This document shows positions 6,766-40,725 of a stretch of 44,446 nt of DNA, in pieces. Under the pieces are notes generated by a model. That model had not been told where the DNA came from, searched no databases, and saw nothing but the letters and a program-made list of their open reading frames with translations. The number at the start of each line of letters is the position of its first letter. Position 1 is the first letter of the stretch. Source of the DNA: a virus; IMG/VR virus record IMGVR_UViG_3300020172_004437, positions 1-44,446 of that record; one strand, 5' to 3'. Position numbers and translations under genes: made by a program.

Positions 6766-6766
6766 T

Positions 6767-7606: not shown

Positions 7607-7768
7607 ATGAAAACGTTGTTAGTATTAGTCATTGTTTGTTGTGCTTCAGAACAGGAAGGTCAGTACGTTTATGAGGCCAAGAATTTGAACACAAATGAGG
7701 TGGGAACTTTGCACACGCAAAGTAAGTATGAAATTGGGGATACCCTTAGGATTCCCGTAACTAAGTAA
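7607..7768 (+). CDS. Small exported or lipoprotein-like protein
   Basis: 53 aa. Starting at 7607 rather than in the longer upstream frame gives MKTLLVLVIVCCASEQEGQ, a short hydrophobic segment with two Cys resembling a lipobox (VCC-A). The mature part is about 40 aa (YVYEAKNLNTNEVGTLHTQ). The ATG is 4 nt after TATCTTTG, so the message is predicted to be leaderless. It lies 3 nt from the next gene. Confidence 0.65.
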   Translation: MKTLLVLVIVCCASEQEGQYVYEAKNLNTNEVGTLHTQSKYEIGDTLRIPVTK

Positions 7769-7771
7769 ACT

Positions 7772-8050: not shown

Positions 8051-8057
8051 ATTGTTT

Positions 8058-8090
8058 AACCCCAGGTTTATCTTGGGGTTTTTTATTTTC
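8058..8090 (+). terminator. Terminator of the 7607-8050 operon
   Basis: AACCCCA/TTGGGGTT stem followed by TTTTATTTT. Confidence 0.8.
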
Positions 8091-8095
8091 ACAGA

Positions 8096-8107
8096 TATTT
8101 ATTTATA
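8096..8107 (+). promoter_or_regulatory. Overlapping TATTTAT/TATTTATA boxes
   Basis: TATTTATTTATA contains two overlapping boxes; 12 nt from its end to the ATG at 8120. Confidence 0.6.
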
Positions 8108-8119
8108 AACAAAAATAAT

Positions 8120-9558: not shown

Positions 9559-9900
9559 ATGGATTATATTGTAACAGAAGAACAACTTGAATCTTTAAAG
9601 AAGAACATTCAGAACCTCATCGACTATTCGTTAAATTCCATCCGTGAACAATCTGAAGATTGGGGATTGGGTGAGATGGATGAACTTGATGAGATTGACT
9701 CTATTGACAAAATTGTTATTGATAGAATTGTTCCTCATTCTCGTTTGGTTGTTTATGTGAATATTCATCAGAAACAATATAGAGAAGACTATGATAACAC
9801 ATTATCTGAATTACAATATGTTATTAACGATTACTTCCCCACCATAGTTTTCCATCTAAATAATGTTATCGATAAAAACGGTGATGTTGTTGAAAACTAA
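9559..9900 (+). CDS. Tagged small acidic protein of the array type
   Basis: 113 aa starting MDYIVTEEQLESLKKN, close to the 2264 gene (MDYIIPQERLKNL). After a helix and an IREQ segment come an acidic stretch (GEMDELDEIDSIDK), a strand SRLVVYVNIHQ and a C-terminal helix-strand ending in FHLNNVIDKNG. Same layout as the leftward array, so a dispersed member of that family. Function unknown. Confidence 0.75.
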   Translation: MDYIVTEEQLESLKKNIQNLIDYSLNSIREQSEDWGLGEMDELDEIDSIDKIVIDRIVPHSRLVVYVNIHQKQYREDYDNTLSELQYVINDYFPTIVFHLNNVIDKNGDVVEN

Positions 9901-9924
9901 ATTTCATTATTGAATTTTTTTTCA

Positions 9925-9932
9925 TATATTTG
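9925..9932 (+). promoter_or_regulatory. TATATTTG promoter element
   Basis: A -7-type TATATTTG 15 nt before the ATG at 9948; only a poor TTTC match lies 20 nt further upstream. Confidence 0.5.
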
Positions 9933-9947
9933 CGTAAACTTAACTAT

Positions 9948-10532
9948 ATGAAATATACCCTTAACACTTACGGATGGAGCGCCGAGTTTATTGGCAAAAA
10001 ACTAACCACAGAACAACTCGAAAAGATTAACGTACTTATGTATGAGAATAAGGTTGATGATGTTGCATCTATACGATTTGATTTGGACGACACAGAAGAC
10101 TTTGATATTTGGGATGGTGATTTGTTACACACCACAAAACCGTTAGACAATAACACTATGTTGTTTCAGGTTTTGGATGAAGACGATAACTTGGTTTTAG
10201 AGTTTGGTATTGAGGACCTTGTGAGTATGGGTGAAGTGAATGAAGATGTTTATGACAACCTGAATAACTATGAAGTATTCCCTACCGAAAATTCTTCCGC
10301 TTATTTAAGTGTTGATGAGTTTAAAGGTGGTATATTCTCTTATGAAATTGAGTCAGAAGAAACCCCTAAAGCTAAAGACTTTAATTACTTGACAAATACT
10401 ATCGATACCCCTGATGGTGATTGGGATATTATTGACAAAGTTTATTTTAAAGGAGTAGAACTTGAGATTGTAGATTTTCTTGACAATACAGGTAAGGCTG
10501 CAACTGTGGATGTGTTTAATTGGGAAGAATAA
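9948..10532 (+). CDS. Acidic hypothetical protein
   Basis: 194 aa from ATG 9948 (MKYTLNTYGWSAEFIGKK); a TTG 18 nt upstream lies inside the promoter element and is rejected. Strongly acidic (VASIRFDLDDTEDFDIWDGD), with repeated beta segments. Lacks the ITE tag. Driven by a host-type promoter, so perhaps expressed earlier than its tagged neighbours. A DNA-mimic role is conceivable from the charge alone, with no further support. Confidence 0.7.
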   Translation: MKYTLNTYGWSAEFIGKKLTTEQLEKINVLMYENKVDDVASIRFDLDDTEDFDIWDGDLLHTTKPLDNNTMLFQVLDEDDNLVLEFGIEDLVSMGEVNEDVYDNLNNYEVFPTENSSAYLSVDEFKGGIFSYEIESEETPKAKDFNYLTNTIDTPDGDWDIIDKVYFKGVELEIVDFLDNTGKAATVDVFNWEE

Positions 10533-10566
10533 TTTCATACTTTTACTCATATAACGTAAACCGAAT

Positions 10567-10588
10567 CCCGACTTCGTCGGGTTTTTTT
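10567..10588 (+). terminator. Terminator after 10532
   Basis: CCCGAC-TTC-GTCGGG hairpin followed by T7. Confidence 0.85.
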
Positions 10589-10764
10589 CGTTTCCCCCCT
10601 ACCCCCCGTCGTCCGTCCACGGTCTCCGACCGTCCGAACCCCTTCGGGTGTTTATGGTACATATCTAAGGATTTATGTGTATCTTCACACTTTTAAGTAC
10701 GAATAAATGTGATATCTCACACTTTTAACCACTTATTATTGTCATCTAAATTAATCGGACCGAC
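10589..10764. other. GC-rich patch and CACACTTTTAA repeats
   Basis: 10590-10645 is C-rich and CG-rich (CCCCCCTACCCCCCGTCGTC, then CCACGGTCTCCGACCGTCCG) against a roughly 30% GC background. Then TATCTTCACACTTTTAA and TATCTCACACTTTTAA occur as a near-perfect direct repeat about 35 nt apart. No gene seen. Confidence 0.5.
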
Positions 10765-10772
10765 TATTTATA
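10765..10772 (+). promoter_or_regulatory. TATTTATA box for the 10777 gene
   Basis: TATTTAT followed by AACAT and the ATG at 10777. Confidence 0.6.
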
Positions 10773-10776
10773 ACAT

Positions 10777-11172
10777 ATGAAATGGTATTCAGAAGAAATT
10801 AAATCACAATATGAATTGATTAACAAGATGGTCTCTTATGCTCTTGGTCAAAAATATCCTGGTACATATTTTAAATTAGGTGAGGAAAGTTATAACGAAC
10901 TTTTTAATCCTGATAGAAACAAATATCAGTTACCTACGGTTGATATTATCTTGTGTGTTGATTTTGGAATCAATTATAAATTAGATTATAGTAATATTGG
11001 TGTTGATACTATTAAATTTATAACGAACGCATTTACTACGATAGTAACTGATTCGGATGTATTATCGTATTATGGACGTTCTTATAATAGTGATGGTACT
11101 TTTTATATGAATAAATTCTATATTAATAAAACAAAACATTGTAGAGGTCGTGTACCTTACACAGTTGAATAA
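10777..11172 (+). CDS. Hypothetical protein with YNSDGTFYMN motif
   Basis: 131 aa. The N-terminal helix MKWYSEEIKSQYELINKMV is not the classical tag. The C-terminal part contains SYNSDGTFYMNKFYI, shared in pattern with SSGTTYMNEYFVG at the end of the 14402 gene and loosely with NSNGATIYLE in the 4762 gene. A basic tail follows the motif. One nucleotide separates it from the next gene. Confidence 0.7.
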   Translation: MKWYSEEIKSQYELINKMVSYALGQKYPGTYFKLGEESYNELFNPDRNKYQLPTVDIILCVDFGINYKLDYSNIGVDTIKFITNAFTTIVTDSDVLSYYGRSYNSDGTFYMNKFYINKTKHCRGRVPYTVE

Positions 11173-11173
11173 A

Positions 11174-11557
11174 ATGAATTATAGTATTAGTGAAAGCCGT
11201 TTAGTTAAGTTAATCAAATCATTATTTGGTAGAAAAGACGTACCTAAAAGTTTGGTAGATATTATTAGAGAGAAATACATCAATTCTTATTTGTCAGGTC
11301 TTGAAAGAGTACATAATGAAAGGTTTCACGGATGGGGAAGTGCTACTATGTGGTCAGATTCTGATGATGAGAGAATGATTAGTCTAATTAAAAAAGGTAG
11401 AGAAGGAAATATAATTAATATAAACCAAAAACTTATAACTAATTTATCAGGATTATTAGGTATGACCAACCAAGAGGTAATGGATGCGATTGTTGTATAC
11501 CTCAAACCTGAAATTAAAGGTAGAATTATGAGCGTTGAACCGTTTTCATTTGGATAA
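11174..11557 (+). CDS. Tagged small protein
   Basis: 127 aa from ATG 11174 (MNYSISESRLVKLIKSLFGR); an upstream TTG would overlap the previous gene. ISE-S matches the proposed cleavage signature. The body is basic and helical, with Trp pairs (HGWGSATMWSDSDDE) and a glycine motif NLSGLLGMT. Unknown function. Confidence 0.7.
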   Translation: MNYSISESRLVKLIKSLFGRKDVPKSLVDIIREKYINSYLSGLERVHNERFHGWGSATMWSDSDDERMISLIKKGREGNIININQKLITNLSGLLGMTNQEVMDAIVVYLKPEIKGRIMSVEPFSFG

Positions 11558-11562
11558 ATAAG

Positions 11563-11569
11563 TATTTAT
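11563..11569 (+). promoter_or_regulatory. TATTTAT box, leaderless geometry
   Basis: TATTTAT TATT ATG: 4 nt to the start at 11574. Confidence 0.65.
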
Positions 11570-11573
11570 TATT

Positions 11574-12434
11574 ATGAATAAAAAAATAAAGATAACTGAG
11601 GATGATTTAATTAAAATCGTCAATATTGTCAAAGAAAACATTAATCTAAATGATTATAGTGACGAGGACTTTATTGAAGTTTTTGTTACTTTATTCAGAC
11701 CTTGGGTGAAAAAGAATCACGGAGATGAAATAGGTGAATATCCAATGTCGTTTTTGATTAAAAAACACTATGATGAATTTGCCAAGTATTATGGCATTGA
11801 TAATGATAGATATTGGGGGTCAGGAATGAGTAAATTAGTCAAAATTGGACGTGCCATAGTAGAAAAAGGTAGACATAAGTTACCTAATTTATCTAAAACT
11901 GAAAAATTTACTGAAAAATACGGAAAAGGTATTGAAATATTGGTAAAAAACTTAGATTTACCTGATTTTGTCACTATTAAAATTGAAGAAGAGAGACCTT
12001 ACGATGTTTGGGTTAGAACTTATGTTGATTTTGAAAAATATGTTAAATCTGACTTAGATAATACACAAATTCAACAAATTAAAAGAGCTGGAGATGAATT
12101 AAGGAAATCTTTTGAGAATTTTTTAGGTGTTACTTATGGAAATCCTTCTCACGGGTTATTAAAATACCACTCAAATTCAACTGCAGAGATGGTTGGTGAA
12201 GATGAATGGGTGAAAAAAGAGCTTAATAAAAAAATTAAGAAAGAAATTAAACAACTACCTGGTGGTAGTGGAATTCATATGATAAAATATGAGAGTGGTA
12301 ACAATAGAATTAAACTTAAATTAGTTTTTAGAAATTCGACTGGGTGGTCATCTCAAAGAAATGTTAAAGAAAGTACCATAAATTTACTAAGAGACCTAGG
12401 TTATAATCCAAATATAATCGAAGTAGACGCTTAA
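11574..12434 (+). CDS. Tagged protein, unknown body
   Basis: 286 aa starting MNKKIKITEDDLIKIVNIVK, a tag of the type seen in the 23724 gene (helix DLxxIVxxVxKE). The body is basic and helix-rich, with WGSGMSKLVKIGRAIVEK, a strand FVTIKIEEERPYDVWV and a C-terminal GSGIHMIKYESGNNRIKLKL. It shares a TAATATG junction with the LETM1-like gene. Not recognised; could be a DNA-binding internal head protein given its Lys/Arg content. Confidence 0.7.
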   Translation: MNKKIKITEDDLIKIVNIVKENINLNDYSDEDFIEVFVTLFRPWVKKNHGDEIGEYPMSFLIKKHYDEFAKYYGIDNDRYWGSGMSKLVKIGRAIVEKGRHKLPNLSKTEKFTEKYGKGIEILVKNLDLPDFVTIKIEEERPYDVWVRTYVDFEKYVKSDLDNTQIQQIKRAGDELRKSFENFLGVTYGNPSHGLLKYHSNSTAEMVGEDEWVKKELNKKIKKEIKQLPGGSGIHMIKYESGNNRIKLKLVFRNSTGWSSQRNVKESTINLLRDLGYNPNIIEVDA

Positions 12435-12435
12435 T

Positions 12436-12765
12436 ATGAAATTTGTAGTATTAGAATCAAAAATTAGAAAATGGGTTGAGGATTTCAAAAGAAATATCGT
12501 AAGAGAGTCTAAAGAAACCAAAATAACCTTCCAAATTCTTACAAAAATGATGTTTTTTTACCTTGGAATTGAAAAAGAAAAGGTAACTCCTGATGAAATT
12601 AGGTTTTTAAAACAACATTCTAAAGATTTAGCCAAAATATTTGGTTTATTAGCAACCCTACCTATCCCACTACCTATTTTTACCATTTTAATTGCCCTTA
12701 AAAAGTTTGGAATTGACTTTTTACCGTCAGATAAAGACTTAGATATTCCCGATAACTACAAATAA
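12436..12765 (+). CDS. LETM1-like short protein with tag-like N-terminus
   Basis: 109 aa. N-terminus MKFVVLESKIRKWVEDFKRN carries VLE-S in the tag position. Residues about 53-103 (TPDEIRFLKQHSKDLAKIFG then a Pro-rich hydrophobic segment LPIPLPIFTILIALKKFGID and LPSD) resemble the core of bacterial LETM1-like proteins (QSKD ... PxP ... LPS). Such proteins are membrane-associated; the role in a virus is unknown. The assignment is by memory of the motif, so moderate. Confidence 0.6.
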   Translation: MKFVVLESKIRKWVEDFKRNIVRESKETKITFQILTKMMFFYLGIEKEKVTPDEIRFLKQHSKDLAKIFGLLATLPIPLPIFTILIALKKFGIDFLPSDKDLDIPDNYK

Positions 12766-13083: not shown

Positions 13084-13974
13084 ATGGGAAAATTTATATT
13101 AACTGAAGAAGATAGAAAATCAATTCGTGGATTATATGGTTTGAACGAGCAATCAAGTGAGATTGTTTCTATTAAAGGAGAGCAACCATATCCAAACGGT
13201 ACTGATTGGGATTTAGTACACGGTATATTAGGTTCTAAAAGATTATCTGATGATTTGGAAAAAAGGGTTAGTGAAAAATTGAAGAGTGGAAGTTATAGAG
13301 TAACTGATGTCAAAATTTCATCTTATGTTAGTGATAATAAAGTTATTACTGATGGAACAGTTACTTTAGTTTCAGACATTAATAATCCTGATATTGCATT
13401 TACTACAAGAGGCTCCATAGGGGGTAATTATGAACAACGTCACGATAACCAAATTAATGGGTTAGTTGACAGATTATCTGCCTATTATCAAGGAATTACA
13501 AGACAATTTGGGCCATTCATTGTTAATGTAAAAGGTTCTTCTTGGAGATACAAACAATCATTTTTTGCGGTTTCAAAACAAAATACAGAACCGTCAAAAC
13601 CAAATCCAGAACCGTCAAGTGGTGAAGTTATGAAGAAATTTGTGATTTCAACAACAAATTTGGACCAATTAAATCCCAAATTTAAAAACGAGGTTTCAAC
13701 TTATATTAAAAGTAATAAAGATGTAAAATATGATGTTGATTATTTTGATGTATCATCTGAAGATGGTATAACCTCAATTGCAAAATTAGATATAGTTCCA
13801 AATGAAAATGGTTACAATCGATTTTCAATATTATTAAATCTAAAAGGAAAACCACAAGAATCATTAAACAATTCCTTAAGTAAAAATCCTGGTTCTAAAC
13901 TTATAAAAGACGGGACGATTACAATAAATAATAAAGAATATGAATACCATTTAATTGGTTTAAATGTAGAATAA
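13084..13974 (+). CDS. Tagged two-domain protein
   Basis: 296 aa starting MGKFILTEEDRKSIRGLYGL and NEQ, a full extended tag with an LNE-Q site at about residues 20-23. An upstream GTG-type extension would add 13 residues and cross the TATTTATA box. The first domain (to about 170) has GTDWDLVHGILGSK and beta strands; a Pro/Asn/Glu linker (TEPSKPNPEPSSGE) leads to a second domain of about 100 aa with VMKKFVISTTNLDQLN. Not recognised. Confidence 0.75.
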   Translation: MGKFILTEEDRKSIRGLYGLNEQSSEIVSIKGEQPYPNGTDWDLVHGILGSKRLSDDLEKRVSEKLKSGSYRVTDVKISSYVSDNKVITDGTVTLVSDINNPDIAFTTRGSIGGNYEQRHDNQINGLVDRLSAYYQGITRQFGPFIVNVKGSSWRYKQSFFAVSKQNTEPSKPNPEPSSGEVMKKFVISTTNLDQLNPKFKNEVSTYIKSNKDVKYDVDYFDVSSEDGITSIAKLDIVPNENGYNRFSILLNLKGKPQESLNNSLSKNPGSKLIKDGTITINNKEYEYHLIGLNVE

Positions 13975-14823: not shown

Positions 14824-15573
14824 ATGGGACAAGAATTAATAAATGAAGAGTTAGAAAAGATGAAATATCTTTTTGGATATCAAAAAGGTGTTGTTATTTC
14901 TGAACAACAAAGTAGAGGAACTTCGGGAACTAGTGGTTCTTCAGGAACCGCAGGTAGTAGTGGTTCATCGGCTTCTACGGCGAATCCTGACGATGCCGAT
15001 TGGACTAAAGTAGTTAATTACTATACAGGTAATACTGACGCATCTTGGGAATTTGTAAGTGCAGGTACTTATGACAGTGGAGCAGTCATTTACGATTTTA
15101 TTGAAGTAAAAACCAAGGATACCGCAACAAATGGGACGGATTGTACAATGAAACTTTATGACGATAAAGACGCTTATAAACGTAATTGTAGAAAGGCTAA
15201 AACAATAAATGGACAGTGGTCTTGGGATGGTAATAAACCAACATTAACTTGGGAGGATAGAATAACTAAATCATCTCCTGGTTATGTATCAGATACTGAT
15301 ACTGATTGGAGTGGAGTAACCAACGATAATAGAATTATGGGAGTTGGTGCTAAAGGAAGTTTAGTAAAAAAAGTTCAAAACTTTTTAGCGTCTAACGGTT
15401 ATACTGGAGAAACATTTACTAACGATATTCAAGCTTGTGCGACAGATGAGAATAGTTGTGATGGAATTTACGGAGTAAAAACTAAAAATATGGTTAAGAA
15501 ATTCCAAGAAGATGCTGATATTAAACCTGACGGTATTTTTGGAACTCAGACTTATGATGCAATGTTTGAATAA
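14824..15573 (+). CDS. Tagged peptidoglycan-binding protein
   Basis: 249 aa. N-terminus MGQELINEELEKMKYLFGYQ with VISE-QQ at about residues 26-30, then a Gly/Ser/Thr linker (TSGTSGSSGTAGSSGSS), a central beta domain with a Cys pair (NGTDCTMKLY, YKRNCRKAK), and a C-terminal PG_binding_1-type repeat about 170-249 (VGAKGSLVKKVQNFLASNGY ... CDGIYGVKTKNMVKKFQ ... IKPDGIFGTQTY). A virion protein that binds cell wall is the simplest reading. Ends at a terminator shared with the convergent small basic gene. Confidence 0.8.
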   Translation: MGQELINEELEKMKYLFGYQKGVVISEQQSRGTSGTSGSSGTAGSSGSSASTANPDDADWTKVVNYYTGNTDASWEFVSAGTYDSGAVIYDFIEVKTKDTATNGTDCTMKLYDDKDAYKRNCRKAKTINGQWSWDGNKPTLTWEDRITKSSPGYVSDTDTDWSGVTNDNRIMGVGAKGSLVKKVQNFLASNGYTGETFTNDIQACATDENSCDGIYGVKTKNMVKKFQEDADIKPDGIFGTQTYDAMFE

Positions 15574-19701: not shown

Positions 19702-20004
19702 ATGAAGTTTATTATTACAGAGGAACAGAAAAATTTGATAGATAAGTATTCGGGTAATACTGATGAAAAAGTATTATCACATCTTAAAAGACACTTCCCT
19801 ATTCAAGTACAGGAGTTTGAATGGTTTGATAAACCATTTAGAACTATTTTTATTGATGATAAAACTAGAAACTTAGACACTAATAAAAAATATTTGGTAA
19901 ACACCATCTTTTATTTATTGGAGGATATATTTCCTAATGTCGATAAGAATATTCTAAGAAGAACTATTAAGTATTATATCGATGTTAATAGGACTTTGGA
20001 TTAA
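19702..20004 (+). CDS. Tagged small protein
   Basis: 100 aa starting MKFIITEEQKNLIDKYSG. The body has a strand FRTIFIDDKTRN, a helix LVNTIFYLLEDIFP and a terminal helix ILRRTIKYYIDVNRTLD, again the helix-strand-helix plan of the leftward array. Single gene between a TATTTAT box and the next box. Unknown function. Confidence 0.75.
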   Translation: MKFIITEEQKNLIDKYSGNTDEKVLSHLKRHFPIQVQEFEWFDKPFRTIFIDDKTRNLDTNKKYLVNTIFYLLEDIFPNVDKNILRRTIKYYIDVNRTLD

Positions 20005-20018
20005 ATAAAATAATTTGA

Positions 20019-20026
20019 TATTTATA
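20019..20026 (+). promoter_or_regulatory. TATTTATA box for the 20040 gene
   Basis: TTGATATTTATAAATA, 13 nt before the ATG at 20040. Confidence 0.6.
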
Positions 20027-20039
20027 AATAAAAAACAGA

Positions 20040-20840
20040 ATGAAAAATAGTTTAGCATTGGTTATAACAGAAAATGATGTTACCCATATTAAAGATTTAT
20101 ATAGTAGAACAATTACCGAACAAACAAATGAAGATAAGCCCGAAGACGTTAAAGTCTTCCAAGATTGGTTAGATACAACCTATCCTGAATGGTTGAATGG
20201 TAAAAAGTTAAACAAAGGTAAAGGGTATGGCACTTTTGGACCTAATACCAAGAAAGCTTGGGAAGCTCATAAAGATGAGTTTAAAGGAGGTAAAAAAGAA
20301 TATCGTTTTTGGGATTCATCCACTAAGAAATGGAGTGACTTAAAAACATCTAAAGAATTAAATGATTTATATAATTCAGGTACTATTAAAGATGAAACTA
20401 TTGTTCATAAATTAGGTATGGGTAGAAATGAAACAATTACTTTAGGTCAGATTGATGTGATTAATACTCCCGCTCCTTATGCAGAACCGACTACGACAAC
20501 AACTACTGTTAAAGCGGAAGAACCTTATAGTGATTACGAAAGAAAAAATTTTGGAGACCAAGAAAGAGGGTCAAAACAAACTCCGTTTGGAAAAACAGAC
20601 GATAAGTTTAAGTTTAACGATACCGAAGAATTTAAAAGATGGTATAAGATAATTTACCAAGGAGATTTACCTACTGAGGCAACAGTAACATTTGATACTG
20701 AAAAGAATACTGCCAAAGTTGAGAATATAAATTTACAAAAGTCGTTAATATATCAATGGTCTCCTAATACAGGTACTTACGAAACTCCGACTACTGACCA
20801 GGAAGTTCAAAAATTTAATTTACCTCCAGCTAAAAAATAA
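20040..20840 (+). CDS. Tagged protein with peptidoglycan-binding-like domain
   Basis: 266 aa starting MKNSLALVITENDVTHIKDL, then SRTITE-QTNED at about residues 24-30. Residues about 37-80 (VKVFQDWLDTTYPEWLNGK, GKGYGTFGPNTKKAWEAH) follow the plan of a PG_binding_1-like repeat (FQxWL, G-x-x-G-x-x-T-x-x-A). A middle domain and a Thr-rich linker (PTTTTTTVKAEEP) precede a C-terminal region with FKRWYKIIYQGDLP. Two cleavage-like motifs (VITE-N and TITE-Q) lie in the first 30 residues. Confidence 0.75.
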   Translation: MKNSLALVITENDVTHIKDLYSRTITEQTNEDKPEDVKVFQDWLDTTYPEWLNGKKLNKGKGYGTFGPNTKKAWEAHKDEFKGGKKEYRFWDSSTKKWSDLKTSKELNDLYNSGTIKDETIVHKLGMGRNETITLGQIDVINTPAPYAEPTTTTTTVKAEEPYSDYERKNFGDQERGSKQTPFGKTDDKFKFNDTEEFKRWYKIIYQGDLPTEATVTFDTEKNTAKVENINLQKSLIYQWSPNTGTYETPTTDQEVQKFNLPPAKK

Positions 20841-23723: not shown

Positions 23724-24740
23724 ATGAAAAAAATTATAAAATTAAACGAAAGTGATTTAAGAAGAATAGTTACTAAAGTTATAAAAGAACACGACAACAA
23801 TATTGTTGAGCCAACAGGTCAATATTTTACTTTAGGTGGTTTTTACTTTTACGTTGATGGTAGTAAAATGTTTTTAGCTGACAGAACAAATGGTGAACTG
23901 TCCCCTAATTTATCTGTTGAATTCCCGTCAACTACTGAGATATCTGCCGAATGGACTCAAAAAACTCAAGAAGTCGATGACGAAAACATTAAAGGTAAAG
24001 AATTAACAGGTTTGTCATTTGACCAAAAAATGAAAAACGCAATCAATTACGGTAAGTTTATTTACACTAAGAACGAAGCTATTGTTAATTTTGGAAGTAT
24101 GATTCCTTTATTATTTTTCTCTCAAAAATTTATAGCACCAACATTAGGAGGTATTGTAGTTGGAACTGAATTCCCTGACGGAGTAGAGGGAAAAATTAAT
24201 TTAATTGACGCAAAACCAGGTAATAAAATATTCTTCCAACAATCGGCATTTAAACACGGTAAAGAATATGGTATTAGATTAGAAGTTGCAATGCACGGAC
24301 AACCAATTTCATTAAAAGATTTTGGAATTAATCAAAATATGTTAAAATTACCTAAAACTTATAATATCGGTGAATTTTTTGCCGAAAATAGTGCAACCCC
24401 ACATAACCTACATACCGCATCTTTTATTAAAACAATTAAAGATTTTATATCTAACGGTGGTAAAGTTAATAGATTAATGATTAACGCATCAACATCTAAA
24501 TTACCTGCAGGTCATATGGATAATGACACAAATAATTCTAAATGGTCTGATAATACAGAATTTAATGATTTAGTTGTTGGTAATAATGATGACGGAAGCG
24601 GTAATTTACAATTATGTAAAGCTAAAGCATATAACACTTATAATGAATTAAAAAAGGCAATTCCTGAATTGAATAGTGCCCCTTATGTTTTAAAAGCGGC
24701 GGGTCCTTTAGGTGAGTATGTTCACGTTAAATTTGAATAA
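23724..24740 (+). CDS. Tagged beta-rich protein with possible OmpA-like end
   Basis: 338 aa starting MKKIIKLNESDLRRIVTKVI then KE-HDN; LNE-S occurs at residues 7-10 and the helix DLRRIVTKVIKE is the commonest form of this head in aquatic phage proteins as I recall. The body begins with a beta domain (YFTLGGFYFYVDGSKMFLAD). The C-terminal part (VNRLMINASTSKLPAGHMDN ... NLQLCKAKAYNTYNELKK) loosely follows the OmpA-like strand / N-x-x-L-x-x-x-(R/K)A helix plan. Ends at a terminator. Inferred virion protein. Confidence 0.7.
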   Translation: MKKIIKLNESDLRRIVTKVIKEHDNNIVEPTGQYFTLGGFYFYVDGSKMFLADRTNGELSPNLSVEFPSTTEISAEWTQKTQEVDDENIKGKELTGLSFDQKMKNAINYGKFIYTKNEAIVNFGSMIPLLFFSQKFIAPTLGGIVVGTEFPDGVEGKINLIDAKPGNKIFFQQSAFKHGKEYGIRLEVAMHGQPISLKDFGINQNMLKLPKTYNIGEFFAENSATPHNLHTASFIKTIKDFISNGGKVNRLMINASTSKLPAGHMDNDTNNSKWSDNTEFNDLVVGNNDDGSGNLQLCKAKAYNTYNELKKAIPELNSAPYVLKAAGPLGEYVHVKFE

Positions 24741-24833: not shown

Positions 24834-24907
24834 GGTAGTGGTAGCTCAGAAGGTAGAGCATTCGTTCAAAAAACGGTGTGCCATTGGTTCGATTCCAATC
24901 CCTACCA
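24834..24907 (+). tRNA. tRNA with bulged acceptor stem, anticodon uncertain (AAA by position)
   Basis: D-arm GCTC-AGAAGGTA-GAGC and T-arm ATTGG-TTCGATT-CCAAT are canonical. The acceptor pairs as GGTAG(T)GG with CCCTACC, which needs one bulged T. The anticodon arm TTCGT-TCAAAAA-ACGGT has a T-T mismatch at the top and C instead of U at position 33; counting gives anticodon AAA (Phe). A homopolymer sequencing error in the A run would change this. CCA is not fully encoded (ACA follows). A functional but diverged tRNA, or a decoy, are both possible. Confidence 0.75.
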
Positions 24908-24927
24908 CAAAAAAAGATAAAAAAAAA

Positions 24928-26820: not shown

Positions 26821-27846
26821 ATGAAAAGAAAATTCGATTTTAAAGATATTACTATAGTACCTGAAACAGTATCATCAATTAGTAGTCGTAGTGAAGTTAA
26901 TATCTTAAATGAACAGGGAGAACTACCAATTATGGTATCCCCAATGGATACCGTAGTTGATTTAAATAACTATAAACAATTTATCGATTTAAACATTCCC
27001 GTTTGTTTACCTCGAGGTGAGGATTTGGTTGACGACGCATTTTATTCGGTTTCATTAGAAGAATTTGAAACTATTGTTAATCATTATTTAGAACCAGGTT
27101 TAAATATTAAACTTAAAATATTGGTTGATATTGCCAATGGTCACATTAAAAAATTACACGATTTATGTGAAAAATTTATCAGTAAGCGAGATAAAACATT
27201 ACATACATTAATGGTCGGTAATATTGCTAATCCTAAAACTTATAAACAGTTTGGTAAAATAGGTGTTGACTATGTTAGAGTTGGAATTGGTGGTGGTTCA
27301 GGATGTCTAACTTCCGCAAATACTGGGGTACATTACCCAATGGCATCATTGATTAATGAATGTTATGAGTTTAAGAAAAAATACGATTTTGAAACCAAAA
27401 TTGTTGCGGATGGGGGTTTTAGAAATTACGATGATATTATTAAAGCTTTGATGTTAGGTGCGGATTATGTGATGTTAGGGGGAATTTTAAATAAATGTTT
27501 AGAATCTTGTTCAGAAACTAAATTATTCAATAAGATTAAACTATCTCAAAACATCTCAAATTATATTTGGATTTATTATCCTAAATTAAGACAATTTTTA
27601 TATAAATCATTTAGAGGTATGAGTACTAAAGATGTTCAAAAAAAATGGAATAAAAATATATTAAAAACATCTGAAGGTATTGTCAAAACAAATAAAGTTG
27701 AGTATACTTTAAATCAGTGGACAGATAATTTTAAAGATTACTTAAAATCGGCGATGTCGTACACCAATTCAAATACTTTAGAATCTTTCAAAGACTCCGA
27801 ATACGTTTTTATAACCGAAAATGCTCTTAAAAGATTTAATAAATAA
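26821..27846 (+). CDS. IMP dehydrogenase / GMP reductase family enzyme
   Basis: 341 aa, a TIM barrel without CBS domains. Seen: FDFKDITIVPETVSS near the start, IMVSPMDTVVD, the active-site loop GIGGGSGCLTSANTGVHYP with C162, IVADGGFRNYDD, ALMLGADYVMLGG, and a degenerate flap FRGMSTKDVQKKW. IMPDH oxidises IMP to XMP; GMPR reduces GMP to IMP; both use the same Cys. The length and lack of CBS favour a GMPR-like enzyme, but the loop GGGSGCLTSA departs from the usual GPGSxCTTR, so specificity is open. Would redirect guanine nucleotide pools during infection. Confidence 0.85.
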   Translation: MKRKFDFKDITIVPETVSSISSRSEVNILNEQGELPIMVSPMDTVVDLNNYKQFIDLNIPVCLPRGEDLVDDAFYSVSLEEFETIVNHYLEPGLNIKLKILVDIANGHIKKLHDLCEKFISKRDKTLHTLMVGNIANPKTYKQFGKIGVDYVRVGIGGGSGCLTSANTGVHYPMASLINECYEFKKKYDFETKIVADGGFRNYDDIIKALMLGADYVMLGGILNKCLESCSETKLFNKIKLSQNISNYIWIYYPKLRQFLYKSFRGMSTKDVQKKWNKNILKTSEGIVKTNKVEYTLNQWTDNFKDYLKSAMSYTNSNTLESFKDSEYVFITENALKRFNK

Positions 27847-30645: not shown

Positions 30646-30869
30646 TGAATTTATTTAAAAGTTTGATAATCTTATTAGTCATTATAGGTAGACTATACTT
30701 AGTTTTTAAAGTATTTCAGGGACTTTATTTTAATCATATTAATCCTGATTATACATTAGATAGTATACAATGGTATTTGTGTGTCTTGTTTTTAGATTTT
30801 TACATAGTTAAGATGTTCGATAATTCAAGTTCTGAGGATATTTATTCTAAAAAAGGTAATGAAGAATAA
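30645..30869 (+). CDS. Small two-helix membrane protein
   Basis: 74 aa; two hydrophobic segments (about 5-25 and 43-58) and a polar tail SSSEDIYSKKGNEE. Its ATG overlaps the TAA of the kinase gene (TAATG) and its end overlaps the next gene by 11 nt, so it is tightly coupled to a lytic transglycosylase. This suggests a lysis or entry role, but the sequence alone is not diagnostic. Confidence 0.65.
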   Translation: MNLFKSLIILLVIIGRLYLVFKVFQGLYFNHINPDYTLDSIQWYLCVLFLDFYIVKMFDNSSSEDIYSKKGNEE

Positions 30870-31587
30870 CTTAAACGAGGAAATAAATCGAATAAAAAAA
30901 TTATCTAATATTAATGAATCGGTCCTTAATGAAGGATTGTTTGATGATATTAAAAAATTAATGTCAATCGCTTCTGACGATATGAAGAGTAATGAAATAT
31001 ATAAAAAATTAATTGACTATTTTAAAGAATTAATTCCTGGTGTAGATTCACAAACTTCCGCAAGTCAACTTAGAATAAGTGAAAAAGGCCAAGAATTATT
31101 AGATAATCCTGTGTTTAAACAAAAATTAAAAGAAATTTCAGATGCAATTAATATTGATGAGCAATCAATTATAAAACTAATGAATCACGAGTCAGGATTG
31201 GACCCAACAATTAAAAATAGTATTGGTTGTGTTGGTTTAATTCAATTTTGTCCTAGTGGTGGAGGTACTAAAAAAATTAATGGTAAAAATTATTCTTTAG
31301 AAGACTTAAGAAATGATTTAGAGGTTCAAATGGAAGCTATTAAACAATTTTGGTTATCAGGATATAATTCTGGTAAAATTAAAAGTCCTGAAGATTTATA
31401 CATTTATAATTTTTTCCCTATCGCAGCTGGAAAATCTGATGACTTTGTATTACAAAGTAGTGACTTGTCTGCAGAAACCGTTGCAAATTCAAATCCAGTG
31501 TTTAATAGAACTCTTAATAGAAAAAGAAACACACCGTTAACTGTTGGTGATTTAAAAGATTATTATCAAAAAACGGGAATGGTTTAA
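30859..31587 (+). CDS. Tagged lytic-transglycosylase-like protein
   Basis: 242 aa starting MKNNLNEEINRIKKLSNINE-S and VLNE-G, two cleavage-like motifs at about residues 17-20 and 22-26. Residues about 86-215 resemble a soluble lytic transglycosylase: MNHESGLDPTIKN with catalytic-type E111, then SIGCVGLIQFCPSGG replacing the usual A-x-G-L-x-Q, and FFPIAAGKSDD where family members have the YNxG region. It would cleave the glycan strand of peptidoglycan, and the head-type tag suggests delivery within the virion. The 3' end overlaps the PPK2 gene by 4 nt. Confidence 0.75.
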   Translation: MKNNLNEEINRIKKLSNINESVLNEGLFDDIKKLMSIASDDMKSNEIYKKLIDYFKELIPGVDSQTSASQLRISEKGQELLDNPVFKQKLKEISDAINIDEQSIIKLMNHESGLDPTIKNSIGCVGLIQFCPSGGGTKKINGKNYSLEDLRNDLEVQMEAIKQFWLSGYNSGKIKSPEDLYIYNFFPIAAGKSDDFVLQSSDLSAETVANSNPVFNRTLNRKRNTPLTVGDLKDYYQKTGMV

Positions 31588-32681
31588 TTCTCAGGTTTTA
31601 ATACCGTAAGAGCTTCAGGGTATTCTTTATTTAAAAGATTTTCATTTTTACCTTCGTAAGGGATATTTTGTAATACGTATCTTATTGCATTTAAACCTGA
31701 TATTTTCTTATCTATTGCGTCCAAAATAACCCAAGGATGATTCATAGTTGAAGTTTTGTCGAATAACTTTTCTTTAAACTCAGTAAATCTATCCCATAAA
31801 TCTTGCATTCTTGAATCGTTTGGAGAATACTTCCAATATTTTAAAGGTGATTTTTGTCTCATATCAAATCTTTTTGCTTGAGTTTCTTTATCAATTGAAA
31901 ACCAAAGTTTAAATAAAAAGTCACCATCTTTAATTAATGAGTTCTCAAAGTCCTCAACACCATCCATAAACTGTTGGTATTCTTCATCAGAACCATAACC
32001 CATAACAGGCTCAACTAATCCTCTGTTATACCAACTTCTATCAAATAGATTAATTTTGCCTTTTTCTATTTGTGATTCGTATCTCTGCCACCAATTTTTT
32101 CTTTCTTCAGGTGTTGGAATTCCCATCGCAATTACTTTATAACCTCTTGGGTTCATATTTTCAATAAATTTCTTAATTGTTGAACCTTTACCAGCGCTAT
32201 CCCTTCCTTCAAAAACAATAATAACAGTTTTATTATTTTTACTTAACCATTCTTGTAACTTTAATAATTCAACCTGTAATCCAAAAAGTTCTTTACGATA
32301 TATTTTTTTAGGAACAATCGAAGGTTCCTGAGGTTCAAACGAGTAATCATCAGATTCTGGCTCAACATTATAACTGTCAGTTTCCCTATTTTTTAAAGAC
32401 TTAACAACTTTGTCAAAATAATTCTCAACGCTTTTTTTCTTATTACCTTTCTTTAATAATACTTTTTTAAGACCTCTATCTAATAATTCAAAATCAATAA
32501 TCCTTTCGTCACCCATTTTAATTATTGAACTAAGATTTTGTTCAACGTTAGGGGTTAACATATTGTTAAAAGATAAAATATCTTTAATTCTTTTAACATA
32601 ATCTTGAGTAGACCCTTCGTTAATAGGCTCCCCTGTTATTATTTTATTAATCTTATAGATTTCTTTTAGCAATTTGTCCAT
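31584..32681 (-). CDS. ppk2: Tagged polyphosphate kinase 2
   Basis: 365 aa. Residues about 130-350 are a PPK2 domain: Walker A GRDSAGKGST (159-168), FDRSWYNRGLVEPVM (Walker B region, about 213-227), lid residues QAKRFDMRQKSPLKYWKYSP and a C-terminal DAIDKK. PPK2 transfers phosphate between polyphosphate and nucleoside di/monophosphates. The 120-residue N-terminal extension begins MDKLLKEIYKINKIITGEPI with INE-G at 20-23, the same tag and cleavage-like motif as the unrelated transglycosylase next to it. This suggests a packaged enzyme that could supply NTPs from polyphosphate at entry. Fully intact by motifs. Confidence 0.9.
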   Translation of the reverse strand: MDKLLKEIYKINKIITGEPINEGSTQDYVKRIKDILSFNNMLTPNVEQNLSSIIKMGDERIIDFELLDRGLKKVLLKKGNKKKSVENYFDKVVKSLKNRETDSYNVEPESDDYSFEPQEPSIVPKKIYRKELFGLQVELLKLQEWLSKNNKTVIIVFEGRDSAGKGSTIKKFIENMNPRGYKVIAMGIPTPEERKNWWQRYESQIEKGKINLFDRSWYNRGLVEPVMGYGSDEEYQQFMDGVEDFENSLIKDGDFLFKLWFSIDKETQAKRFDMRQKSPLKYWKYSPNDSRMQDLWDRFTEFKEKLFDKTSTMNHPWVILDAIDKKISGLNAIRYVLQNIPYEGKNENLLNKEYPEALTVLKPEN

Positions 32682-32725
32682 ATCAATAATTATTTTGTCA
32701 ATCTAAATAAGTGATAAACTTTTTC

Positions 32726-32732
32726 ATAAATA
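32726..32732 (-). promoter_or_regulatory. TATTTAT box for the PPK2 gene
   Basis: Minus strand AAGATATTTATGAA, 44 nt before the start at 32681. Confidence 0.5.
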
Positions 32733-32780
32733 TCTTATTAAGAATTATTCTACATCGCGGTCATTATTTAATAATAACAA

Positions 32781-32788
32781 TATTTATA
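32781..32788 (+). promoter_or_regulatory. TATTTATA box for the exported-protein island
   Basis: AACAATATTTATAGT, 31 nt before the ATG at 32820. Confidence 0.55.
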
Positions 32789-32819
32789 GTATAATAAATT
32801 ACCAAGATATTAAACAACT

Positions 32820-34724
32820 ATGAAAAAACTTCTAGTGGCCGCCTTGTTATTGCTAACAAGTTCGGTCGGATTCTCTCAAACGTGTCCTACTCCCACGTCA
32901 TCAGGAGTATACGTCACTCTCGACACAAATTATCAATTAGGTACTGTTGCTGCAGGTTTTACAGATGTGGGTATGTGTTTTTACAATAACACAACCACAG
33001 ACATTACTGCTTTTCAGTATAGAGTTTATTACGATAATAACGCCTTTTCAGGTGTTGACACCGTAACCTCATTGAATACATCATTTTCACAATATCTTAA
33101 CTACGTTGATAACCCAACTAATGGATATGTGACAATTACTTTAACTTACACAGGTTCATTGGCGACTTTTGAAATACCAAATGGTCCTATAATTAATTTA
33201 AAGTTAAATCACGTTACAGGATTTGCTTCTTTAACCTCTGTTGCAAATATGTCATTTGGAACTGTGGTTACTTTCCCCGCAATATCGACAAAACAAGATG
33301 GTACTGATAATACATTAACACTTCAAAATTTTGGAGGTATAATGTTACCTCAAACAATGTCTTATCACGGTACGTTCACAAACGTAACAGGAACAGGGGC
33401 TAAAAATTTAACTGTAGGTCTTGAAAAAAGATTAAGACCAAGCGGTTCTTGGACATCGGTAACATCGGCATTAACCAATATTAATGGTGATTTCGCGTTT
33501 AACTCAATTGCTATCGATACTACAGGTTATGATGTTCGTTTAGCAATTGTTGGGGATACTATGAGTGTTGGTAATGTAATTTCTACCGCGGATGCTCAGA
33601 AAGTTAACGACTATGTATTGGGTACACAAACCCCGTTAGGATTTGATTATTACGCTTCAGATGTTAATGGTGATAATAGTATTTCTGTTTCAGATGCTTA
33701 CGGCGTTTTTGGTAGAATCTCAGGTAGATTCAGTCAATGGCCGAACAATGTTAAAGATGTTAAATTCTTTACTGTTTCACAATACAACACTATTAACGGG
33801 TCTTCAACAAACCACACATCTTCAATTGCTGGTGTGACTAATTTCTATCATAACATTATTGCAGGTCAACCTGATTCTGTAACATTTTATGTATTAGTTC
33901 CTGGTGATGCGAACGGTACTGGATTTCATATGGCTCGTGTAACACCAATAGAAGTTTTAATTAACCCTACTCCAGGAGTTGAATCTCAAATATATAACGT
34001 TATTGATAATAGAGTTGAGTACGATTTTCCTACAACATCTATTGAAGTTAATGTACCAAGATTATCTGTTCAAGAAGGTAATTTAGTGAACATTCCTGTT
34101 AAAGTCTTAACTAATAATACCGAATTAGGTTCATTACAATTTGGTTTAAAATATAATGATACTTTATTAGAGTTTAAAGGGATTGAATCAAAATCTTCAT
34201 CTTCAAGTTGGTTAACATATTTAAACACAAACGATAATCAAATTGATTGGGGTGGTTATGATGTTAGTAAACATTTAAAACCTTTAAGAAATAATGATGA
34301 GGTTATTACTTTAAAATTTATTGCAAAACAACCACAATCTTCTTGGGATGAAAGTCCTCTTTGGACTACTAATAAATTTGCTGGAGATAACACTTGTAAA
34401 GATTTGGAAATAACCCCAACAAATGGAATTGTCCAAGTTTACAAAATGGTTAATGGTAATTTGACGGATATTAATGGTATGATTGTATTCCCTAATCCTA
34501 CAGAAGACTTCACAACTATTAAATTTGAAGTTAAAGAATACGGTCCTGTTAAATTATCTGTTTACAGTGTAAATGGAGGTGAATGTAAGGTAATTGTAAA
34601 CGATACAATGCCTGAAGGGAATTATCAATATAGTACAAATCTTGGGTTTTTACCATCAGGAGTTTATTTTGCGGTACTTAGAAGAACCGACAAACAACTA
34701 ACAAGTAAAATAATACTTAAATAA
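32820..34724 (+). CDS. Secreted cohesin/dockerin-like protein with T9SS sorting domain
   Basis: 634 aa. Signal peptide MKKLLVAALLLLTSSVGFSQ (cut after FSQ). Residues about 25-165 and 410-525 are cohesin-like beta sandwiches (second: PRLSVQEGNLVNIPVKVLTN, FGLKYNDTLLEFKGIE). Residues about 250-300 are dockerin-like with two calcium loops, the second SDVNGDNSISVSDAYGVF. Residues about 553-634 (MIVFPNPTEDFTTIKFEV ... SGVYFAVLRRTDKQLTSKIIL) are a type A C-terminal T9SS sorting domain, typical only of Bacteroidetes. The protein should be exported by the host and attached to its surface; an adhesin or receptor-masking role is inference. Confidence 0.85.
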   Translation: MKKLLVAALLLLTSSVGFSQTCPTPTSSGVYVTLDTNYQLGTVAAGFTDVGMCFYNNTTTDITAFQYRVYYDNNAFSGVDTVTSLNTSFSQYLNYVDNPTNGYVTITLTYTGSLATFEIPNGPIINLKLNHVTGFASLTSVANMSFGTVVTFPAISTKQDGTDNTLTLQNFGGIMLPQTMSYHGTFTNVTGTGAKNLTVGLEKRLRPSGSWTSVTSALTNINGDFAFNSIAIDTTGYDVRLAIVGDTMSVGNVISTADAQKVNDYVLGTQTPLGFDYYASDVNGDNSISVSDAYGVFGRISGRFSQWPNNVKDVKFFTVSQYNTINGSSTNHTSSIAGVTNFYHNIIAGQPDSVTFYVLVPGDANGTGFHMARVTPIEVLINPTPGVESQIYNVIDNRVEYDFPTTSIEVNVPRLSVQEGNLVNIPVKVLTNNTELGSLQFGLKYNDTLLEFKGIESKSSSSSWLTYLNTNDNQIDWGGYDVSKHLKPLRNNDEVITLKFIAKQPQSSWDESPLWTTNKFAGDNTCKDLEITPTNGIVQVYKMVNGNLTDINGMIVFPNPTEDFTTIKFEVKEYGPVKLSVYSVNGGECKVIVNDTMPEGNYQYSTNLGFLPSGVYFAVLRRTDKQLTSKIILK

Positions 34725-34730
34725 AAATTG

Positions 34731-34755
34731 AGGTCACATTTTGTGACCTCTTAGC
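34731..34755 (+). terminator. Hairpin after the T9SS protein
   Basis: Perfect GAGGTCACA-TTT-TGTGACCTC, but only TTAG follows, so it may be an attenuator or RNA-stability hairpin rather than a terminator. Confidence 0.5.
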
Positions 34756-34790
34756 CTTTACAATAAACTAAAAAAACAAAAACAAATATT

Positions 34791-35120
34791 ATGTCAGAGG
34801 AAACAACAAACGAAACAAACGACGGTACTTGGTCAGGATTAAAAAAGACAATTATCGCAACATTAACAACAGTAATTGCTGGCGGAGGGGTATGGTTATC
34901 AACAATGCTATTTGGTGGTCATAGCGAAGAAAAAGAAGAAACTAAAACAGAACAAGTTGCGCCCGCTCCTGTTATTGTGAATGTACAACAAAATCAAGAA
35001 AATAAACAAAAGGTTGAAAATGGGGGTACTAATACAATCATTAAAGAAAGGGTTATTGAAAAACCTGCTCAAACACAACCTGCTCAAACACAACCTAAAA
35101 AAGAAGAGGAATCTTGGTAA
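34791..35120 (+). CDS. Single-pass membrane protein with disordered tail
   Basis: 109 aa: acidic N-terminus, one membrane segment (about 18-42, KKTIIATLTTVIAGGGVWLS), then a long Glu/Lys/Gln-rich tail with VIVNVQQNQENKQK and the duplicated PAQTQPAQTQ. Its end overlaps the start of the CsgG-like gene (TAATG), so the two are coupled. Likely a scaffold or linker within the envelope complex. Confidence 0.65.
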   Translation: MSEETTNETNDGTWSGLKKTIIATLTTVIAGGGVWLSTMLFGGHSEEKEETKTEQVAPAPVIVNVQQNQENKQKVENGGTNTIIKERVIEKPAQTQPAQTQPKKEEESW

Positions 35121-35836
35121 TGAAAAAAATATTTTATTTTTTAATAACAATTTTACTTTTGTCTTGTAAAGTTAACGGTCAGATAGGTACTGTAAAAACT
35201 GAAGAATACAAAGCGGAATTTGAAAAAAAACAATCTATGACGGTTGTTTCAGATTACACGGATACTATTGTAATACCAATACAAGTGTTACAAATCGGGA
35301 TTAATGAAAGTGTTTATGAAATGTATCCCGAACTTAAAGATAAAAGAGTTGGTTTAGGGGTTGCTAACATTGTGTTAGAGTACCTTGAGATGACCGATAG
35401 ATTTATGTTTACCGAAGAAAAAGAGGAAATCAAACAAAGAATGATTGCTCAAGATAAAGCGTCGGATAAAGGTATTTCAAAAAATAAAATTGATGTTAAA
35501 GGTAATGTTATTTTAGCTAAGTATTTTGTCTACATAGAAGTATATGATTTTTCAGTATCTGAAGACGAAGTTGTTAAACTAACCGAGGGTGCAAAGGCAA
35601 CTCAAACTACAAGATTAGGATTACAAGTAAGATTTGTTGATGCTGAAACAGGAGAAGTCATCACTGGTAGTGGTTTAGGTGAATCATCTACGGTTAAAAC
35701 TTCATCATTGTTAGATGGTGTTGATGAAATTAAATTTAATCAATCCACAATAGGTATTTCGACAAAAAAAGCTCTTGAAACGGCATCGTCAAGAGTGGTG
35801 TCAAAATTAATAAAAAAGGGTGTCTTTAAATCTTAA
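35120..35836 (+). CDS. CsgG-like lipoprotein
   Basis: 238 aa from ATG 35120; MKKIFYFLITILLLSC gives a lipobox Cys at residue 16. Residues about 80-230 fit the CsgG/HfaB plan: VGLGVANIVLEYLEMTDRFM, KGNVILAKYFVYIEVYDFSV, ATQTTRLGLQVRFVDAETGEV and a final amphipathic helix KKALETASSRVVSKLIKKG. CsgG forms the nonameric outer-membrane pore that exports curli subunits. The pore-loop strands cannot be verified by eye. Surrounded by exported proteins of unknown type, it may export a fibre-like phage product or open the envelope. Confidence 0.75.
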   Translation: MKKIFYFLITILLLSCKVNGQIGTVKTEEYKAEFEKKQSMTVVSDYTDTIVIPIQVLQIGINESVYEMYPELKDKRVGLGVANIVLEYLEMTDRFMFTEEKEEIKQRMIAQDKASDKGISKNKIDVKGNVILAKYFVYIEVYDFSVSEDEVVKLTEGAKATQTTRLGLQVRFVDAETGEVITGSGLGESSTVKTSSLLDGVDEIKFNQSTIGISTKKALETASSRVVSKLIKKGVFKS

Positions 35837-39045: not shown

Positions 39046-40725
39046 ATGAAATTTTTATTTATTACATTATTTTTACTGTTATCTAATATAGTATTAGGTC
39101 AGAATTTTACGTATAGTGGTTACATCTATAACGCAGGAGGTTTACCTGCTTCAAACGTACCTGTTAAATTATATAAAAGAACAACACCTTCGTTAGTTGG
39201 GTTTACTTCCCAAACAAATTATAACGGACATTCATATTATCGCTCAACAGGTTCAATGTTTTGGTTAGACGCTAAAGCCGCCTGTGAAAATATGAACGGA
39301 CATTTGGCAACAATATCAAACGTTGCTGAGAAAAATTTTCTTTTTAATACTTGGCCATCAGGATGGATTGGGTATTATCAAGATAAGACAGGTTCGTTTT
39401 ACTCAGAACCTTTAGGAGGATGGAGATGGACTGAAAACTATGTTACTACAACACAAACCAATAACTATGATGTTGCTAGTTATACATCAGGTAATAGTCT
39501 AACAGATTTAAAAAACTCAAAAAACATTACATTATATAACTCACCAGTTCTAACTACAAGTGGTGGGAAATATCTAACATTTAATGGTGTTAACAACTAT
39601 GGTATAACACCAAGTCTTACAAGTCATTTTAGTAATTCAAATGTTATTACACTAATACTATGGGTATATCCTACAGGTAATGGTGTAATATTGGACGAAT
39701 TAGGTACACCTTCAACTTCTTCAGGTTGGCACGAGTCGGTAGTTGAGATAACAGGAGGTAACACCTTAAGATGCGGATTTTGGAATGGTACTGGTATTAC
39801 ACAAATCTCGACTAGTATAACCTTAAATCAATGGTGTATGGTTGCGTTAACCTATGATGGGTCAACAATGACAGGATATAAGAATGGAGTGTCTTTTGGT
39901 AGTACAACCTTTAATAGATTAGCACCTCATTTAAATGGTGGCGGAGACCAAGTATTTGCGTTAGGATTAGCCGATGGAACTCATATGGGTCACGGTGGGT
40001 ATGGGTCTTTCAGATTAGGTGCATTCCAAATTTATAACACTTCTTTAACTTTGGACGAGATAAATAGAAATTATATGTCACTATCTTATAGGTTTGGATT
40101 AAATCCTTATCTATCGTGGAATGGCGGAGAGCCAAATAATTCGAATAGTGAAGATTATGCTCAATTTGTTGGTTCTGGATTATGGAATGATTTACCTAAT
40201 AATGTTTCATTACCTTATGTGATTGAATTTGATTATATTGTTACCTTTACACCTTGGGTATTACATCAGACTGTTTTTACAAATTCAAATGGGTATTATA
40301 GTTTTAATCAATCAACAAATCCTGCAACAGAATGGTATATACAGATAGATGTGCCAAATGGGCCTGTAACAACACTTCAAAATAATGATTTATATAATGC
40401 GAATTTTAAAGTTTTAAACAGAAATTTTACATCAATAGATTATTACCGATATGATGTAAATAATGACAATAAAATAACAATTTCAGATGTATACTATATT
40501 CATATGAAAAAATCAGGTTTATTCTTAAATTGGACTTCACCTTTACCAAAAACAAGATTATTTACACAGTCTGTGTATAATACAATTATGTCATCAACAA
40601 ATGATATAAGAGCAACATATAGTGGAACTAATAATATAGTTATTATGTCCCCAACCAATGGAGGTAGTTCAAATTATTATTTGATTAATACAGGGTATTC
40701 TAATAGTATTAGTTTAAGCTATTAA
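39046..40725 (+). CDS. Secreted C-type lectin interrupted by a LamG domain, dockerin-like end
   Basis: 559 aa. Signal peptide MKFLFITLFLLLSNIVLG. The first lectin half lies at about 60-132 (SYYRSTGSMFWLDAKAACEN, GHLATISNVAEKNFL, GGWRWTE). Residues about 150-350 are a LamG-type sandwich (YLTFNGVNNYG, VITLILWVYPTG, WCMVALTYDGS, GAFQIYNTSLTLDEINR). The second lectin half resumes at 356-397 (LSWNGGEPNNSNSEDYAQF, LWND). Near 465-490, YDVNNDNKITISDVYYI is dockerin-like, followed by FTQSVYNTIMSSTN as in the 32820 protein. A carbohydrate-binding surface protein or fibre component. No T9SS tail. Confidence 0.8.
   Translation: MKFLFITLFLLLSNIVLGQNFTYSGYIYNAGGLPASNVPVKLYKRTTPSLVGFTSQTNYNGHSYYRSTGSMFWLDAKAACENMNGHLATISNVAEKNFLFNTWPSGWIGYYQDKTGSFYSEPLGGWRWTENYVTTTQTNNYDVASYTSGNSLTDLKNSKNITLYNSPVLTTSGGKYLTFNGVNNYGITPSLTSHFSNSNVITLILWVYPTGNGVILDELGTPSTSSGWHESVVEITGGNTLRCGFWNGTGITQISTSITLNQWCMVALTYDGSTMTGYKNGVSFGSTTFNRLAPHLNGGGDQVFALGLADGTHMGHGGYGSFRLGAFQIYNTSLTLDEINRNYMSLSYRFGLNPYLSWNGGEPNNSNSEDYAQFVGSGLWNDLPNNVSLPYVIEFDYIVTFTPWVLHQTVFTNSNGYYSFNQSTNPATEWYIQIDVPNGPVTTLQNNDLYNANFKVLNRNFTSIDYYRYDVNNDNKITISDVYYIHMKKSGLFLNWTSPLPKTRLFTQSVYNTIMSSTNDIRATYSGTNNIVIMSPTNGGSSNYYLINTGYSNSISLSY

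Follow-up and report, generated by a model that had tools for sequence, protein, structure and literature searches.

A class I polyphosphate kinase 2 behind a putative head-loading leader in a large T4-related virus of Bacteroidota

A gene for a class I polyphosphate kinase 2 (PPK2) is carried by the virus described here, a large T4-related one of Bacteroidota. In the reading we favour on the strength of sequence comparisons, and to which we assign a probability of roughly 0.68, the enzyme would be loaded into the phage head via a short N-terminal leader, cut, injected and used in the new host to make nucleoside triphosphates. Drawing on phosphate stored by the host, such an enzyme could do this as soon as infection begins, and its injection together with the viral DNA is probable because its leader resembles the removable head-loading leaders of T4-type phages. 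The reading of the leader as a virion tag is supported by its presence on unrelated proteins, by its match to the capsid cut site predicted for sister phages, by the IPIII-like heads of the PPK2s of certain megaphages, by an upstream element that the gene has in common with virion genes and by the absence of the extension from cellular PPK2s. The DNA analysed, termed the window, comes as a virus record of 44.4 kb (IMG/VR IMGVR_UViG_3300020172_004437), a fragment without a capsid or protease gene.

The capsid-targeting strategy of phage T4 is already known; what is new is the leader family and the PPK2 cargo. Full-text literature searches found neither a phage nor a virion-borne PPK2, in keeping with the first-pass annotation, which knew of no described virion-borne case. 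Among papers on related phages, polyphosphate is not mentioned in the main text of PMC9723584 and PMC7162821, and the metabolic-gene section of the former names no packaged enzymes.

The enzyme and its N-terminal extension

The PPK2 gene (P0001; 31584..32681, minus strand), delineated from its open reading frame, a Pfam domain and matches to solved structures, encodes 365 amino acids; its coordinates are those of the first-pass annotation, to which only the strand has been added. The complete catalytic domain claimed there is indeed present, PF03976 (PPK2) matching residues 125-346 with E=5e-72 and over positions 4-227 of the 229 in the profile, and we place the class I domain at residues 123-349 (31635..32315, minus strand). 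It contains the Walker A motif GRDSAGKG (residues 159-166; 32184..32207, minus strand) and, at residues 213-219 (32025..32045, minus strand), the Walker B motif with the class signature, FDRSWYN; both GRDSAGKG and FDRSWYNR are invariant in an alignment of 30 phage PPK2s. The signature residue after Walker B is Asn in class I, Gly in class II and Glu in class III (PMC8776046), and N219 is thus the class I residue, the equivalent position in the class II structure 3czp being Gly. A sequence search returned class I structures (Francisella tularensis) among the closest solved relatives, and the best fold match of the domain in a structure search is class I 5ll0 (E=1.7e-21). Judged by its sequence, the product is a class I PPK2 with intact motifs and predicted enzyme activity. 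In its catalytic domain, Walker motifs, Asn signature and fold it resembles the cellular class I enzymes of Francisella tularensis (4YEG/5LL0) and Sinorhizobium meliloti (SMc02148, 3CZQ/6DZG), from which it differs in being phage-encoded and in possessing an added leader and a four-helix domain.

The 122 residues ahead of the PPK2 domain, described earlier as about 120, comprise several distinct parts. In the AlphaFold2 model (mean pLDDT 74) a helix at residues 2-16 is followed by a low-confidence break at 16-22 containing INE|G (20-23), by four helices at 23-98 predicted mostly with good confidence, by a stretch of very low confidence at 100-118 and then by the PPK2 fold. The leader proper occupies residues 1-22 (MDKLLKEIYKINKIITGEPINE; 32616..32681, minus strand), with a predicted prohead-protease cut after E22. 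Its helix has a hydrophobic moment at the 99.6th percentile of internal 15-mers, a value reached by 1.1% of shuffles; the amphipathic helix and the INE-G that had been noticed in this head thus both hold. Residues 23-98 (32388..32615, minus strand) form a four-helix bundle in the AlphaFold2 models, again giving four helices when residues 23-122 are predicted alone from the single sequence, and a search of solved structures with the bundle yielded no match at E<=0.001 and no known fold. Residues 99-122 (32316..32387, minus strand), where pLDDT falls below 50 at 100-118, are probably a flexible linker. That all 122 extra residues might constitute the tag was rejected, since residues 23-98 fold as a separate domain: we predict that these form a conserved helical domain of the mature PPK2, at its N-terminus and distinct from the tag. 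The 'virion-type tag' originally proposed keeps the support of several independent lines of evidence, and is confined to about the first 22 residues because what follows is domain and linker.

The N-terminal extension is, by comparison of sequences, phage-specific. Its conservation was assessed in the best 80 of 135 candidate IMG/VR stretches which, together with the window, provide 54 distinct PPK2 sequences. These retain a leader of the form M-x(1-2)-LLNE-I-x-RIKxVMG, followed by a variable stretch, while synonymous codons vary freely at the conserved positions (six codons at L5, four at R10, three at I11 and four at G16), which argues for selection on the peptide and puts the head far beyond chance. 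A [LIVMF]xE site occurs in 52 of the 52 scorable heads, compared with a mean of 39 and a maximum of 48 of 52 in shuffled heads; the residue following the predicted cut is not confined to A or G, and may be Q, E, G, D, S, A or T. None of the best 80 bacterial relatives exceeds about 50% identity, and the majority align from near residue 110-130 onward, the distance from the first Met to the P-loop in single-domain cellular PPK2s having a median of 84 residues (range 38-151) as against 158 here. A hidden Markov model of the extension (residues 28-120) matched 0 of the 80 best cellular relatives, bearing out the absence from cellular PPK2s that the first-pass annotation had asked to be checked; the same model weakly matches the PPK2 of a 735-kb phage (E=0.0026). 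An extension common to bacterial PPK2s was accordingly rejected, on the model result and the positions at which the alignments start.

Several other features of the window deserve mention in their own right. An IMPDH/GMP reductase-like protein, another possible enzyme of purine nucleotides, is encoded near PPK2 at 26821-27846, and a tRNA-Phe with anticodon AAA, in place of the usual GAA, is predicted at 24834-24908 (ARAGORN; 40 bits with the Rfam tRNA model). Two apparently secreted proteins lie at 32820-34724 and 39046-40725, one with a cohesin and a type IX secretion sorting domain and the other with C-type lectin and laminin-G domains; in Flavobacterium phage immuto cohesin and lectin proteins are annotated near its copy of the window gene at 35114-35836.

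The leader on unrelated genes and the element upstream

The neighbouring gene, which is tail-to-tail with PPK2 and overlaps it by 4 nt, encodes an SLT transglycosylase (30859..31587, plus strand; PF01464, E=1.5e-5) whose leader (residues 1-25; 30859..30933, plus strand) reads MKNNLNEEINRIKKLSNINESVLNE followed by G, the LNE|G being retained in orthologues of this protein. With a leader profile built from PPK2 heads alone its N-terminus scores 14.4. We used this profile to scan 712 non-PPK2 genes of the window and of two sister contigs, G001 (321 kb) and G003 (269 kb), and found 14 with the leader at the N-terminus at a score of at least 11. Such scores are about 60 times commoner in N-terminal windows than at other positions, and at a score of at least 15 there are 10 N-terminal windows as opposed to 0 of 172,168 elsewhere; the likeness to the transglycosylase head that had been remarked upon is in this way placed on a quantitative footing. 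The domains behind the leader include, besides the SLT transglycosylase of the window, a glucosaminidase, a weak GH19 match and a P-loop kinase-like protein. A related leader (MGQELINEELEKMKYLFGYQKGVVISE before Q) begins a PG_binding_1 protein of the window (14824..15573, plus strand).

A motif-free test for shared heads, applied to the window and to megaphage stretches with signal peptides excluded, detected in the window 20 genes with shared heads on unrelated bodies, whereas each of two control positions gave 4. The majority of these 20 belong to other leader classes, for example MKYIITE and MKKIIKLNESDL. Over all genes the density of [LIVMF]xE, a coarse measure, is higher near N-termini. 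We also observed a second, larger head family (MKYIITES/E, MGKFIITEE and MKKIIKLNESDLRRIV types) on about 16 window proteins with unrelated bodies, among them those at 511-1454, 6409-7279, 9559-12765, 13084-13974, 19702-20840 and 23724-24740, which on sequence grounds is probably another leader class of like kind. Short-peptide searches of an isolate phage collection gave no match for leader peptides of the PPK2 and RLTESDL types, and the matches of an immuto-type leader peptide were confined to records of Flavobacterium phage immuto. This isolate, which also encodes a gp21/gp23 pair, has its own leader family, FDLKKFLVENKLTxNSKxLKE, in four places, including its stretch 7631-8632 and 8632-8931, and its gene annotated as cobalamin adenosyltransferase PduO begins with that leader, the annotation being probably wrong.

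The PPK2 start is preceded at 28-22 nt by TATTTAG (32703..32709, minus strand), a variant of TATTTAT. The latter stands 10-30 nt ahead of the starts of 93 genes in G001 and 87 in G003, where about 2-3 would be expected, including the portal, protease, tail sheath and baseplate genes, and was not found at the replication genes examined (ribonucleotide reductase, exonuclease, recombinase, SSB and primase). It accompanies 31 of the 32 leader genes that have an intergenic gap of their own, and TATTTAN precedes 44 of 54 phage PPK2 genes in the set drawn from the best 80 of 135 stretches. The G001 capsid gene is without TATTTAT. From this distribution the element is probably a late promoter of this phage group, for which we regard it as a candidate.

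Cut sites, prohead proteases and known systems

A gp21-type protease is encoded in 8 of 10 sister contigs and a gp23-type capsid protein in 6 of 10, the PPK2s of these contigs being 66-71% identical to that of the window. The capsid proteins of G001 and G003 have a propeptide-like N-terminus with a predicted cut at LINE|A near residue 60. In G003 the gp21 protease and the gp23 capsid protein were further observed to occur twice each, in different types, at 31270-34976 and 233341-237947; either the phage has two capsid modules or the contig is a joined one.

Comparison with three megaphage genomes of 635, 642 and 735 kb is particularly instructive. PMC7162821 predicts Bacteroidetes hosts for those of its genomes that exceed 634 kb. 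The PPK2 catalytic domains of the three are about 50-56% identical to that of the window, with different heads that resemble T4 IPIII: KFINE|E in LR745206 and in LR756502, and NFMNE|S in LR756501, the heads of T4 IPII and IPIII being MKTYQEFIAE|A (from NC_000866). Near the N-termini of the capsid proteins of these same phages the predicted cut sites are, respectively, SINE|N, QINE|N and QMNE|N, such that a capsid INE goes with an INE in the PPK2 head and a capsid MNE with an MNE, each leader fitting its own phage. In a 31-kb stretch around the PPK2 of the 735-kb phage eight genes, PPK2 among them, share the IPIII-like head. By the predicted sites, then, one enzyme is found behind two different leaders, each suited to the cut site of its own phage. 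As an aside, the match to the S77 prohead protease in the three megaphages falls within an open reading frame of about 640-660 amino acids (699-811 by search), far above the length of T4 gp21, possibly a protease-scaffold fusion.

The nearest functional parallel is the capsid targeting sequence (CTS) of T4, whose mechanism is treated in the review PMC9026906. As in T4 IPII, IPIII and Alt, a short amphipathic N-terminal peptide ends here in hydrophobic-x-Glu, at a predicted site; gp21 and gp23 homologues are encoded, here in the sister genomes, and the leader is common to unrelated cargo. The differences are that the T4 CTS is MKTYQEFIAE whereas the leader here has 22-30 residues and the motif LLNE-I-x-RIKxVMG, that the cargo includes a metabolic enzyme, that the position following the cut varies more and that candidate cargo genes are many more. 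The window leader differs in sequence from that of IPIII, which only the megaphage PPK2 heads resemble, and we therefore class it as CTS-like in its working and not as a homologue of IPIII; by analogy it would act as the T4 CTS does. In phiKZ, SPN3US (gp245) and 201phi2-1 many head proteins likewise have N-terminal propeptides cut after Glu, as predicted here, and the head holds a large protein load (the parts of PMC9026906 and PMC10052503 considered); these giant phages are of another lineage, and in those parts their propeptides are not described as this leader and no PPK2 cargo is reported. The freshwater Bacteroidetes phages encoding bS21 (Chen et al. 2022, PMC9723584) are similar in size and predicted hosts, and like them G001 and G003 possess, next to the protease and portal genes and on the other strand, a short S21-like gene. 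These S21-like genes, identified by eye (L106 8711-8896; G003 232583-232771), would group the contigs with the phages of that study.

Proposed packaging and its alternatives

We propose that PPK2 would be expressed late and that its leader, residues 1-22, would attach to the prohead core in the manner of the T4 IPIII CTS; as the head matures, a gp21-type protease would cleave behind INE (E22), freeing inside the head a mature enzyme consisting of the helical bundle and the PPK2 domain. This would enter the cell along with the DNA and phosphorylate NDPs (ADP, GDP) to NTPs with host polyphosphate, ahead of phage gene expression. The mechanism up to prohead targeting is supported by sequence; cleavage, packaging and role we infer. 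That PPK2 is packaged in the head seems to us quite probable and that its leader is cleaved after E22 somewhat less so, though still probable, while for NTP supply after injection as its main role the chances appear about even.

A different possibility is that PPK2 acts late in the cytosol of the dying cell, providing the NTPs that replication, late transcription or the packaging motor require, with the leader serving to localise it to proheads or the assembly site and no delivery to the next host. The upstream element common to PPK2 and virion genes implies late expression, as this explanation would have it, and filling large heads with DNA costs much ATP. However, it leaves unexplained both the head with its capsid-like cut site on unrelated proteins, including peptidoglycan hydrolases, and the IPIII-like head on megaphage PPK2, and we consider it unlikely. 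Rather less likely still is that a packaged PPK2 serves chiefly to remove or remodel the polyphosphate of the host, or to counter defences that deplete nucleotides, instead of supplying synthesis. The anatomy of the protein would be identical, and class I PPK2s consume polyphosphate, some working in either direction (PMC8776046); yet the locus lends it no specific support, no defence-related neighbour was identified, and sequence does not separate this role from NTP supply.

The co-occurrence of the head with the upstream TATTTAT could also be taken to mean that the shared head is a gene-expression cassette, in the form of start-region codons or a copied promoter-linked element, and not a targeting peptide. 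We hold this to be very improbable, given that leader residues are kept while their codons change freely and that TATTTAT precedes many virion genes lacking the leader. As to the extension being an ordinary bacterial PPK2 N-terminus, the variable tail length of cellular PPK2s is in its favour, but with none of the best 80 cellular relatives recognised by the extension model, and most aligning only from residue 110-130, it is scarcely credible.

Head loading by the leader, with delivery of PPK2 to the next host, thus continues to be the reading we prefer. The tens of shared-head genes per genome are more than any packaged set known to us, and some leaders may therefore serve something other than packaging. 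We would advance only tentatively, at somewhat less than even odds, the wider view that large T4-related Bacteroidota phages load dozens of enzymes and other proteins via a few leader families, among them a PPK2 that draws on host polyphosphate to power infection in its first minutes. If the proposal is true, PPK2 would be the first example, so far as the literature searches show, of a virion bringing in an energy enzyme that uses polyphosphate, and the earliest minutes of infection would be linked to the polyphosphate reserves of the host. This leader would then amount to a readable rule for predicting packaged and injected proteins among the unknowns of huge Bacteroidota phages, so that much of their dark gene content would become testable by a single proteomics experiment.
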